DNA of 64,000 nucleotides from an uncultured Marvinbryantia sp. (GTDB taxonomy: Bacteria > Bacillota > Clostridia > Lachnospirales > Lachnospiraceae). Below, one piece after another: positions 4,304 to 52,062 of the stretch (position 1 is the first letter of the stretch; every line of letters begins with the position of its first letter). The notes under the pieces were generated by a model. That model saw only the letters and a program-made list of their open reading frames with translations, made no database searches and was not told the DNA's origin. The DNA lies in NCBI GenBank assembly GCA_947630735.1, contig CANRIR010000007.1, positions 1-64,000 of the forward strand, given 5' to 3'. The position numbers were made by a program, and so were the translations under genes.

Positions 4304-5845
4304 ATGAAGAAAAGACAAACAGTTACCGTTCTGCTTTTATCAGCGCTTGCGCTCGCAGGCTGCGCGAAGACGCCAGAGCAGGCGGTGGTGCGCGAAAAGG
4401 GAGACCGCGGCGTTGAGGGCTACCGGGAAGAGACGGAAAGTTCAGAGACAAACGCGCTGGCGCAGAAGCTCCAGGTACCGGACGTCTACGAGCAGTCGCT
4501 CGTCTCCGACGACGGCAAGTTCAAGCTGGAGTGCAGCGCGGATATTTTTGTGCCGGACGTGGCGAAGGTGCCCATCTATCAGGTAACGCAGAAGGATTTT
4601 TCGCAGGAGCTCATCGACCGTGTGACGAAGACTTTCTTTGGGGACGCGCCCGTCTACGACGCGGAATATCTCTACGGCAGGACGAAAGCGGACATCGAGG
4701 TAAAATTAAATGAGCTGAAGGGCTACATGGCGGAGGGCAACCTGGATCCCTACGGCGTCATTGCGCGCCTGATCGAGCAGGGGGTAAGCGAGGACGAGGC
4801 GAAGCAGGAGTACGACCTGCAGGCGCAGATCGACGCCTGGGAGGAAGCCTATATCAACGCGCCGGAGGAAAAGGAAAAGAAGGAGGTGCAGCCCGGCTTT
4901 TCCGACACCGCGCAGGATGACGCCGGAACCAACTCCAGCGACTATTTTGCCGGCTACGTGGAGACCGAAAACGGCAGCTATTTCTACCAGCTGCAGACCT
5001 GGAGCGCCGAGCCGATCAACATTCGGATCTCGCGGCTGGACCGGGAGAATATGGATTCGAACACCGGCGAGCTGGAGTACCGGGAAGTGATAGGTCTCTG
5101 GGATCAGGAAAAGACGGACGCCTCTCTTACCGAGGAGGAACAGAAGGAGCGCTTAGGGGAGCAGACGGGGCTTACGAAGGAGGAGGCCGTCGCGCAGACG
5201 GATCGCTACCTGGAAAGCCTGGGGCTTCTCGATGCGTTTTCCTGCAAGGACGTGGTGCTGGCCCGCGGCAGCTGGGAAGGAGGGGGCGAGTGGGACGATC
5301 AGCCGGATATGCACGTCAGCTGTTACGGCTGGCAGGTCATCTACACCAGGGACATCGACGGCTTCCCGGTGACATACGAGGTCAATAAAGGCGGGGCTCT
5401 GGAATCCATGGAGAGCACCATCGAGCCCTGGCGCTACGAGACGGTGCAGATAACCGTCAACAAGGACGGCCTTTTGTTCGTCGATATTGAAAATCTGTAC
5501 GATGTGGGCGAGAAGCGCATGGAAAATGTGCAGCTTCTGCCGTTTCCCGAGATCGCCGGAATTTTTGAGCAGATGATCCAGATCCAGAACGCCCAGATGG
5601 AATACACGCTGGAGAACAAGATCCACATTTCCCATGTCTCTCTGGGATATATGCGCATCTACGACCCCACCGTGGAAAATCATGCGGGCACGCTGGTGCC
5701 GGTGTGGGATTTCTTCGGATCGGAGGAAGTGGCGGGCGCTTACGAGGGCGAGTCCTATCAGTTTGTGAACAGCTTTGCAAACGAGAGCTTTCTCACTGTC
5801 AACGCGGCGGACGGCACCGTGATCGACCGCGGGCTGGGGTATTGA
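4304..5845 (+). CDS. Secreted lipoprotein, paralogue 2
   Basis: Lipobox ALAGC; shares TPEQAVVREKGD, LESMESTIEPW, GTVIDRxLGY with the upstream ORF. Confidence 0.8.
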   Translation: MKKRQTVTVLLLSALALAGCAKTPEQAVVREKGDRGVEGYREETESSETNALAQKLQVPDVYEQSLVSDDGKFKLECSADIFVPDVAKVPIYQVTQKDFSQELIDRVTKTFFGDAPVYDAEYLYGRTKADIEVKLNELKGYMAEGNLDPYGVIARLIEQGVSEDEAKQEYDLQAQIDAWEEAYINAPEEKEKKEVQPGFSDTAQDDAGTNSSDYFAGYVETENGSYFYQLQTWSAEPINIRISRLDRENMDSNTGELEYREVIGLWDQEKTDASLTEEEQKERLGEQTGLTKEEAVAQTDRYLESLGLLDAFSCKDVVLARGSWEGGGEWDDQPDMHVSCYGWQVIYTRDIDGFPVTYEVNKGGALESMESTIEPWRYETVQITVNKDGLLFVDIENLYDVGEKRMENVQLLPFPEIAGIFEQMIQIQNAQMEYTLENKIHISHVSLGYMRIYDPTVENHAGTLVPVWDFFGSEEVAGAYEGESYQFVNSFANESFLTVNAADGTVIDRGLGY

Positions 5846-49017: not shown

Positions 49018-50697
49018 ATGTTAGTAAATCTGCATGTGAAAAACATGGCGCTCATCCGGGAGCTGGACGTTGATTTCGGCGAAGGGCTGAACATTCTCAC
49101 CGGGGAGACGGGCGCCGGAAAGTCCATATTGATCGGATCGATCAATGTGGCGCTTGGAATGCAAAATTTTAAGGGCTTTGCCAGGGAGGACGCAGATACG
49201 GCACTGGCGGAGCTGATTTTTTCCGTGGAGGACGAGGCCCTGCGCCAAAAGATCGAGGCGCTGGACATCCCGGTGGAGGACGGTCAGGTGATCATCAGCC
49301 GCCGCCTCTCCAACGGCCGCAGCATCAGCAAGGTAAACGGGGAGACCGTCCCGGTCTCCACGGTCCGCGAGCTGGCCGCGCTTTTGATCGACATCCACGG
49401 CCAGCACGAGCACCAGTCGCTCCTCTACCAGAAGAACCACCTGCGCATCCTGGACGAGTTTGCGAAGGAGGAGCTGAAAAGCTATAAAGAGACCGGCCGG
49501 GCGCTCTTTGAGGAGTACGCGGACCTGAAAAAAAAGATGGAGCGCTCCTCCCTGGACGAGGCGTCCAGAAAGAAGGAGGCCGATTTCCTGCAGTTTGAGG
49601 TGGACGAGATCGACGCCTGCGCCCTGCGGCCCGGGGAGGACGGGGAGCTGGAGCGGCGGTACCGGAAGATGGCGAACGCCAGAAAGATCGCTCAGGATGT
49701 CTCCGAGGCATATCAGATGACCGCGGAGGGACGGCCCTGCGCGTCGGATCTGGTGTCCTCCGGTCTGCAGAGGCTGCTCGCGGTGTCCTCTTATGACCGG
49801 GAGCTGGAGGGGTTTGCCGATCAGCTGGGCGAGATCGAAAATCTGCTGGCGGATCTCAACCGGGAACTCTCGGCCTATCTGGACGGCCTGACTTTTGATG
49901 AGACGGAATTTTTACAGATCGAAGAGCGTCTGGACAAGATCAATCATTTAAAATCAAAATACGGAGGCTCCATAGAGGAGATCCTTTCTTACCGGGACGA
50001 AAAAGAAACGCGTCTGCAGGAACTTCTGGATTACGATACATATATCGCGGATCTTGAGAAAAAATACAGGCAGAGCGAAAAAAAACTGCGGGAAAACGCG
50101 GAGGCGATGTCAAAGATCCGCTGCCGCTGCGCGGACCGGCTGGCGAAGGCCATCACGGAGCAGCTGCTGGATCTGAATTTTCTGGAGACCACCTTCACGG
50201 TCCGCGTGGAGCCGGGCACTTCTCTAAGGGCGGACGGTTTCGACGAGGTGTGCTTCCTCATCCGCCTGAACCCGGGCGCGCCTCTGCGGCCGCTGGCCGA
50301 GGTGGCTTCCGGCGGCGAGCTCTCCAGGATCATGCTGGCCATCAAGACGGTGATGGCCGCGGGCGATGAGATCCCGTCCCTGATCTTCGACGAGATCGAC
50401 GTGGGCATCAGCGGCAGGACGGCCCAGAAGGTCTCGGAAAAAATGGCGGTCATCGCGGCGAACCGCCAGGTGCTGTGCATCACGCACCTGGCCCAGATCG
50501 CGGCCATGGCGGACCATCACTATCTGATCGAAAAGTCCGTCCGTGATCAGTCCACCGTCACGTCCATCCGCCGTCTGGACCGCTTTGAGAGCGTCGAGGA
50601 GCTGGCGCGCATCTTAGGCGGGGCGAAGATCACGGACCTGACCCTGCAGAGCGCGCGCGAAATGAAGGAAATGGCAGACACAACAAAAAAATACTAG
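49018..50697 (+). CDS. recN: DNA repair protein RecN
   Basis: LTGETGAGKSILIGSI, DIHGQHEHQSLL, LIFDEIDVGISGRTAQKV. Confidence 0.97.
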   Translation: MLVNLHVKNMALIRELDVDFGEGLNILTGETGAGKSILIGSINVALGMQNFKGFAREDADTALAELIFSVEDEALRQKIEALDIPVEDGQVIISRRLSNGRSISKVNGETVPVSTVRELAALLIDIHGQHEHQSLLYQKNHLRILDEFAKEELKSYKETGRALFEEYADLKKKMERSSLDEASRKKEADFLQFEVDEIDACALRPGEDGELERRYRKMANARKIAQDVSEAYQMTAEGRPCASDLVSSGLQRLLAVSSYDRELEGFADQLGEIENLLADLNRELSAYLDGLTFDETEFLQIEERLDKINHLKSKYGGSIEEILSYRDEKETRLQELLDYDTYIADLEKKYRQSEKKLRENAEAMSKIRCRCADRLAKAITEQLLDLNFLETTFTVRVEPGTSLRADGFDEVCFLIRLNPGAPLRPLAEVASGGELSRIMLAIKTVMAAGDEIPSLIFDEIDVGISGRTAQKVSEKMAVIAANRQVLCITHLAQIAAMADHHYLIEKSVRDQSTVTSIRRLDRFESVEELARILGGAKITDLTLQSAREMKEMADTTKKY

Positions 50698-50698
50698 A

Positions 50699-50725
50699 GT
50701 ACATTTGCGAAATACTCACATACTA
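50699..50725 (+). promoter_or_regulatory. Putative sigma-G/F-type promoter of spoIVB
   Basis: GTACA, 15-nt spacer, CATACTA. Confidence 0.45.
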
Positions 50726-50759
50726 AGGGAGGATACCGAAAGGATGTGAGTATTTTGCA
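50706..50759. repeat. 16-bp inverted repeat (one G:U) spanning the spoIVB start
   Basis: TGCGAAATACTCACAT (50706-50721) / ATGTGAGTATTTTGCA (50744-50759); 22-nt loop with AAGGGAGG. Confidence 0.9.
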
Positions 50760-51993
50760 TAAGTGTCATAAACGCGGGTATCTGTTTCTGACCGCGGTCC
50801 TTTTGCTGGCCGCGTCCCTCTGGTGGCTTGTGCTGTTCCAGCGTATACCGGATCACATCCGGGTGGCAGAGGACAGCAGGCAGGCAAAATACCTGGGCAA
50901 TCTTCTCCCGGGCTGGATCGACGAGGAGGTCATGGAGGCGGCGGGGCAGCAGGCGTCCGATATTCCGCGTGAAAACCTTCATATATCAGGGCAGGATTCC
51001 TACACGCTCAAGTGCAGCCTGCTGGGCATACTGCCCATCAAGGATGTGCAGGTGGATGTGGTGGAGAGGCAGAAGCTGATCCCCAGCGGCATCCCGGTGG
51101 GAATTTATATGAAAACAAACGGCGTGCTGATCGTTGGGACCGGGGAAGTCTCGGATATCAACGGCATCCGGCAGGAGCCCGGCGGGGAGGTGGTGCAGTC
51201 GGGAGACTACATCCTGTCTGTGAACGATGTGCCGGTCACGGAGAAAGAAGAAGTGATGGATCAGATCAGCCAGGCTGCGGGCGGCCAGGTAAAACTGACG
51301 GTGCTGCGCAGGGGCGAGCGGACGGATCTGCTGGTCCCCGTGGTGCAGACGGATTCCTCGGAGTATAAGGCCGGCATCTGGATCCGCGACGACACCCAGG
51401 GGATCGGGACGCTCACCTACCTGGACCAGAACGGGAACTTCGGAGCGCTGGGACACGGGATCAGCGACATCGACACCAGCACGCTGCTGGACCTGGAGTA
51501 CGGCACCCTGTACCGGACGGACATCCGGACGGTCATAAAAGGGACGAACGGCGCGCCGGGCGAGCTGGCGGGCACCATCCGCTACAGCGGCGATGAGGTG
51601 CTGGGCAGCATCAGCGACAACACCGGCATCGGCATATTCGGGACGATCACGGCGGACAGCGCGGACCTGGCCTACTGCGGCGCGATGGATATCGCCTACA
51701 AGCAGGAGGTAAAAAAAGGTCCCGCACAGATCCTGAGCGCCGTGGACGGCGAGGTGAAAGCCTACGACATTGAGATCGAAAAGATCAGCCTCAACAGCGG
51801 CGACGCCAACAAGAGCATGGTCATCCGCGTGACGGACGACAGGCTGCTGGAACTGACGGGCGGGATCGTGCAGGGCATGTCGGGCAGCCCCATCCTCCAG
51901 GACGGGCGGATCGTGGGCGCGGTGACCCATGTGTTCGTCAACGACCCGACAAAGGGCTATGGGATCTTTGTGGAGACGATGATGGAGCATTGA
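50746..51993 (+). CDS. spoIVB: SpoIVB serine peptidase (GTG start; TTG at 50755 possible)
   Basis: PDZ region and C-terminal GMSGSPILQDGRIVGAVTHVFVNDP. Confidence 0.95.
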   Translation: MSILHKCHKRGYLFLTAVLLLAASLWWLVLFQRIPDHIRVAEDSRQAKYLGNLLPGWIDEEVMEAAGQQASDIPRENLHISGQDSYTLKCSLLGILPIKDVQVDVVERQKLIPSGIPVGIYMKTNGVLIVGTGEVSDINGIRQEPGGEVVQSGDYILSVNDVPVTEKEEVMDQISQAAGGQVKLTVLRRGERTDLLVPVVQTDSSEYKAGIWIRDDTQGIGTLTYLDQNGNFGALGHGISDIDTSTLLDLEYGTLYRTDIRTVIKGTNGAPGELAGTIRYSGDEVLGSISDNTGIGIFGTITADSADLAYCGAMDIAYKQEVKKGPAQILSAVDGEVKAYDIEIEKISLNSGDANKSMVIRVTDDRLLELTGGIVQGMSGSPILQDGRIVGAVTHVFVNDPTKGYGIFVETMMEH

Positions 51994-52010: not shown

Positions 52011-52062
52011 AAAGAATAAATTTGTGCGGGCCAGGGCACGGACAAATTTATTCTTTTATTTT
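52011..52062 (+). terminator. Terminator after spoIVB
   Basis: Perfect 15-bp stem AAAGAATAAATTTGT...ACAAATTTATTCTTT then T-rich. Confidence 0.85.

Follow-up and report, generated by a model that had tools for sequence, protein, structure and literature searches.

The junction between recN and spoIVB carries, on a forespore-type promoter, a sequence arm that pairs with the Shine-Dalgarno and start region of spoIVB, and this pairing covaries across the bacterial family to which the analysed DNA belongs. The window, as the whole 64-kb stretch under analysis is called here, shares with its family an arrangement in which the housekeeping gene recN directly precedes the sporulation protease gene spoIVB. 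The pairing probably acts as a cis-acting RNA clamp, a reading we hold with good though not full confidence, through which only transcripts from its own forespore promoter would allow spoIVB to be translated. Read-through RNA from recN would carry both arms, and pairing of the promoter-derived 5' arm with the Shine-Dalgarno and start codon would block the ribosome. By definition, a -10 element is absent from its own transcript. A transcript from the sigma-G-type promoter would start about 7 nt past the -10 box, lack the 5' arm and be free for translation. In many relatives, a recN terminator in the loop would form a first lock, which the same start site would weaken as well; in the lineage of the window, half of this terminator appears to be gone, leaving the clamp as the sole lock seen. 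We lean slightly towards a broader reading, a family-wide two-lock gate in which terminator and translational clamp are both keyed to the forespore start site and opened by one initiation, with a Shine-Dalgarno whose sequence evolved to be complementary to the -10 region of the same gene. SpoIVB is a signalling protease, and this role is a possible reason for keeping the gene off.

The recN-spoIVB junction in the window

The features of the junction are collected in Table 1. The identity of spoIVB is given by NCBIfam TIGR02860 (E 4e-111, exceeding the cut-off in a scan begun at GTG 50746). The stem pairs exactly as first described, over 16 bp with one G:U, and wider arms of 24 nt around it are 83% complementary. 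The RNA fold of positions 50690-50800 has an energy of -36.6 kcal/mol (z = -4.0), which none of 200 shuffles equalled. Among the 11 inverted repeats of the window (at least 16 nt, arms at most 60 nt apart), the spoIVB stem is second on the list, and among 99 junctions of the family the window's own arm pairing is the strongest. An Rfam search of the window matched no known RNA family. Past spoIVB, a further strong inverted repeat with 22-nt arms of 91% complementarity lies at 52011-52056; it is likely a terminator separating spoIVB from the [FeFe] hydrogenase gene.

Table 1. Positions of the genes and of the promoter, clamp and start features at the junction.
Feature	Position	Strand	Basis and remarks
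recN	49018..50697	+	ORF; NCBIfam TIGR00634, E 8e-150, exceeds cut-off; upstream gene, putative source of read-through
-35-like element GTACA	50699..50703	+	4/5 match to B. subtilis sigma-G GNATA
Clamp 5' arm	50706..50721	+	complement of Shine-Dalgarno/start region; overlaps promoter spacer and -10 box
-10 box CATACTA, sigma-G-type promoter	50719..50725	+	fits CAWAMTA
5'-arm remnant of recN terminator, other half absent	50726..50737	+	same-genus comparison
Predicted sigma-G transcription start	50731..50733	+	from promoter spacing, about 6-8 nt past the -10 box
Shine-Dalgarno region GAAAGGATGTGA	50738..50749	+	duplex with 16S 3' end; kept in relatives
Clamp 3' arm	50744..50759	+	spans half of Shine-Dalgarno plus TTG start
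spoIVB	50755..51993	+	412 aa; TTG 50755 likely true start, from relatives

The promoter-like elements, GTACA and CATACTA with a 15-nt spacer, are also present as claimed. By sequence they qualify as a promoter of the sigma-G type, the -10 and -35 consensus sequences of B. subtilis sigma-G being reported as CAWAMTA and GNATA (PMC3416734). The -35-like element of the window is imperfect; four relatives of the same genus retain GAGTACA. An account of C. difficile describes the forespore consensus as closely resembling its B. subtilis counterpart and records a sigma-G promoter for spoIVB (PMC3789822). Transcription from this promoter should begin about 7 nt past the box, near 50732, and the predicted start lies 3' of the 5' arm because the arm overlaps the promoter spacer and the -10 box.

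The translational part of the original prediction, which took GTG 50746 as the start codon and AAGGGAGG (50725-50732) as the ribosome site, has to be revised. GTG 50746 falls within the Shine-Dalgarno region, relatives place the start at the position of TTG 50755, and AAGGGAGG corresponds in the alignment to the 5' arm of a terminator still present in relatives. At the five readable same-genus junctions, a conserved block AAAGGATGTGAG precedes a TTG or ATG at that position, and TTG 50755 is therefore most likely the true start of spoIVB. The GAAAGGATGTGA region forms a duplex of -15.1 kcal/mol with the 3' end of 16S RNA, and the clamp 3' arm contains the second half of this Shine-Dalgarno together with the start codon. 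A caveat attached to the prediction, that a sigma-G transcript would lose its ribosome site AAGGGAGG, is void since the probable Shine-Dalgarno sits 3' of the predicted sigma-G start.

Promoter and terminator at the junctions of the family

A spoIVB match was found in 258 of the 397 genomes searched in the window's family, for which the originally named Lachnospiraceae is plausible, and in the records of named genomes spoIVB was present at 3 loci only. From 178 loci taken, 19 had no recN match; the remaining 159 were brought to 140 junctions by removing 7 duplicates (5, then 2 more), 9 loci from outside the family and, without need, 3 from within it (L039, L043 and L044, two of them with a CATAMTA box). 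All 140 junctions have a recN end and a called spoIVB start. Starts in relatives were chosen by Shine-Dalgarno strength and codon, blind to the 5' arm, and that of one locus (L022) was shifted by hand. A CATAMTA box lies between recN and spoIVB in 99 of the 140 junctions, the set analysed here; 34 have no such box, and 7 were left aside for a bad start or length. A TGAAA-like -35 element matching at four or more of five positions occurs in 71 of the 99, against a background of 22% in shifted controls, and 58 of these 71 are at 14 nt.

From the missing U-run, the stem had been said not to be a standard recN terminator. This is correct for the window, where the plus strand of the recN-spoIVB gap has no terminator-like site, that is, no GC-rich stem followed by a U-run; it does not extend to the relatives, for all five readable same-genus junctions hold a terminator-like hairpin in the loop. 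The hairpin follows the -10 box and precedes the Shine-Dalgarno, and the window keeps its first half only. In one relative (G006), the terminator that aligns with AAGGGAGG of the window reads GAGAGGATACC..GGTATCCTTTTT; in another (G001), CGAAAGG occurs twice, in the terminator loop and before ATGTGAG. The window may possibly have lost its terminator by a deletion between such CGAAAGG repeats in the loop and the Shine-Dalgarno. Set against locus L031, the region at 50726-50738 looks as if the recN terminator had been lost in the lineage of the window.

With a strict finder, a terminator was detected between box and start in 50 of the 99 junctions. In 26 of these 50, the first base of its stem is the last base of the box, and in 42 the stem begins within k+3 to k+12. 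A looser test finds a terminator in 58 of the 99, with 53 of the 58 beginning by k+12. As this stem usually begins where the -10 box ends, the predicted sigma-G start would fall inside the terminator 5' arm, and for these 53 junctions an RNA begun at k+13 would be without 54% of the hairpin energy on average. At one locus (L010), the CATACTA box past recN is itself within the 5' arm of a terminator-like hairpin, another form of overlap between promoter and terminator. Two further ideas on how stem and terminator relate were given up. Compensation of a lost terminator by a stronger stem is unsupported (-11.55 in junctions without a strict terminator vs -10.48, p = 0.33). An attenuator-type switch between clamp and terminator was dropped because the terminator does not include the clamp arms and the two structures do not compete.

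The position of the stem also invites a reading centred on recN, by which it would be mainly a 3'-end or processing element of the recN mRNA, for protection or for cutting by a double-strand RNase, and would hide the spoIVB start only secondarily. A long stem right past the recN stop could serve in this manner in the window, and relatives have a terminator there, yet such a role leaves unexplained why one arm is the Shine-Dalgarno and start region of spoIVB and why the pairing is kept around a complete terminator. We regard it as improbable.

Pairing between promoter and start region

The conservation of the putative translational clamp was examined by a swap test, in which each 22-nt 5' arm, its 3' end lying in the box, was paired in turn with the 30-nt start windows of all 99 junctions. 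Native arms have a mean energy of -11.01 kcal/mol vs -8.05 kcal/mol for swapped arms (permutation sd 0.22, z about -13.6, n = 99), and no permutation in 20,000 reached the native mean. A non-redundant subset of 93 junctions gives z -13.2. Ten of 13 shifted controls range from z -2.4 to +1.5; these had the 5' arm moved (-12, -22, -44, -66, -88 or -110 nt), the start window moved (+30, +60 or +90 nt) or the two together (-44 and +30 nt). The other three, with the 5' arm shifted by -6, +6 and +12 and in strong overlap with the real arm or box, give z -7.7, -14.1 and -8.8. The pairing signal fades where box and start are at least 130 nt apart (z -2.5, 23 junctions), and an unanchored signal is also present in the 34 boxless junctions (z -4.7). 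A useful stem is missing from 25 of the 99 junctions, where the pairing is weaker than -7 kcal/mol.

Individual base pairs were counted in the 51 junctions with RTGTG in the start window, a motif that fixes the pairing register; the 48 junctions without it were omitted. Beyond the core, pair k-4 is formed in 43 of the 51 (21.5 when shuffled), as CG in 9, AT in 10, TA in 15, GC in 5 and G-U in the remainder. Pair k-5 is formed in 39 (23.2 when shuffled), as TA in 15, CG in 11, AT in 4, GC in 2 and again G-U in the remainder. All four Watson-Crick types are present at both positions, with at least 11 changes of type at k-4 and at least 12 at k-5 on a recN tree built with FastTree from the C-terminal parts of recN for 97 of the 99 junctions; only Watson-Crick rows carry tree labels (39 at k-4, 32 at k-5). 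Over k-3 to k-8, A-C mismatches number 6 where 17.0 are expected and G-U pairs 31 where 38.8 are expected. Since A-C is depleted far more than G-U, pairing in RNA is favoured over a repeat in DNA. Together, the excess of native over swapped pairing and the covariation support selection for an RNA stem that would silence recN read-through transcripts. The original prediction had named conservation of the stem in relatives as a check, and the pairing is indeed kept by compensatory change across the family. The proposed promoter-dependent occlusion of the start accordingly fares well in two respects, the covarying pairing and the coincidence of the 5' arm, in 99 of 140 junctions, with a promoter of forespore type, and less so in its details of start codon, Shine-Dalgarno and lost terminator.

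The depletion of A-C mismatches bears directly on another explanation, in which a dimeric regulator would bind the inverted repeat as DNA over the promoter and the RNA complementarity would be a by-product. The 5' arm does lie on the promoter, inverted repeats near promoters are often operators, and matched half-sites could change together as their regulator evolves; a DNA repeat, however, would not distinguish A-C from G-U. In addition, the -10 box and the start are separated by anything between 34 and 354 nt, and all distance classes pair better than swapped arms do, if less so at 130 nt or more; the second arm, moreover, coincides with the Shine-Dalgarno. An operator thus appears very unlikely.

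The predicted effect of the RNA clamp can be expressed as the cost of opening the start region. Over the 99 junctions, the mean cost is 9.86 kcal/mol in the read-through RNA and 6.93 in the predicted sigma-G transcript; it is 6.64 with the arm deleted in silico and 9.95 in a control with 22 nt deleted elsewhere. The values for the window are 22.2 kcal/mol for read-through, 4.7 for the predicted sigma-G transcript, 11.0 with the arm removed and 22.1 for the control. The gain exceeds 2 kcal/mol in 55 of the 99 junctions, and in 32 the start region opens no more easily in the predicted sigma-G transcript than in the read-through RNA.

If the functional transcript started upstream and contained both arms, the stem would instead dampen or time the translation of all spoIVB mRNA, much as a 5-bp leader hairpin of B. 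subtilis sigG lowers translation 2-4 fold (PMC5942855). The conserved sigma-G-type -10 and -35 elements over the 5' arm speak against an upstream start, as do the terminator-like hairpins between promoter and start (50/99 and 58/99 in the strict and looser counts), and its chances seem slim. Mere coincidence, in which TCA followed by the -10 box, a sequence resembling the 16S anti-Shine-Dalgarno, would pair with any Shine-Dalgarno, accords with swapped arms still pairing at about -8 kcal/mol, beyond the non-overlapping shifted controls, but is contradicted by the swap test, with native pairing far above swapped and covarying positions outside the shared core, and is practically negligible.

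Specificity and known parallels

Should the gate be real, one promoter position would control both transcription and translation, and compensatory evolution would keep this solution across many genera. A -10 region complementary to a gene's own Shine-Dalgarno would then be a signature for developmentally gated genes behind constitutive ones. Two patterns with exact core arms, each run in 299 genomes, match 14 and 26 places, vs 7 and 8 for the reversed control. The recN-spoIVB junction accounts for 15 of these 40 loci. In the remaining 25 the pairing spans just 5-7 nt, of which 5 are imposed by the pattern, so there is no sign of a genome-wide set of genes with the same gate in its strict form. 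In 60 genomes, a narrower pattern matched nothing but the site in the window; a three-part pattern matched 4 places in 250 genomes, and a promoter-only pattern 2 places in 30 genomes, neither of them spoIVB and both, by eye, gene interiors.

Other forespore genes of the family were inspected as well. At the sigE-sigG junction, where a start was called in 26 of 29 loci, no comparable arrangement was seen by eye. Upstream of sigG in several relatives (e.g. L195, L202, L211, L212), a GTGAGAAT..TTTTA-like block recurs by eye, perhaps a sigma-F-type promoter. At locus L260, on the minus strand of G175 contig C41 at about 4926-4989, a GerXA-like gene for spore germination (NCBIfam NF052514, E 1e-93, under its cut-off) stands behind another gene and is an exception in having the promoter, terminator and Shine-Dalgarno arranged as at spoIVB: CACATACTA, a terminator stem from the end of the box, and then GGATGTGA. 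Its pairing, however, is confined to the 5 bp that the pattern imposes. A promoter inside a terminator may be common at forespore genes of the family.

A literature search for such a clamp at spoIVB, with poor coverage of subscription papers, found no description of one. The nearest phage parallel is the lysozyme gene e of T4, whose early RNA hides the ribosome site while the late RNA starts within the hairpin and is without the 5' arm. Unlike gene e, spoIVB is not a phage gene, and the promoters differ. Intrinsic terminators that overlap downstream promoters are a general notion too, and the relatives' recN terminator, its stem starting at the -10 box, resembles them; in contrast to a plain overlap, spoIVB would add a further lock at the level of translation, opened by that same start. 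For sigG (spoIIIG) of B. subtilis, it has been proposed that read-through RNA from the spoIIG operon is kept from being translated by a hairpin of at least 20 bp, which cannot form in RNA from PsigG (PMC5942855, citing Masuda 1988 and Sun 1991). There, too, a forespore gene stands behind another gene, and the proposed promoter-dependent hairpin follows the logic suggested for spoIVB. Unlike sigG, spoIVB is another gene in another bacterial group, its covariation is family-wide, and its junctions often nest between the arms a terminator whose stem starts from the -10 box. While the logic is thus known from B. subtilis sigG, spoIVB as the gene, the family-wide covariation and the nested terminator look new.
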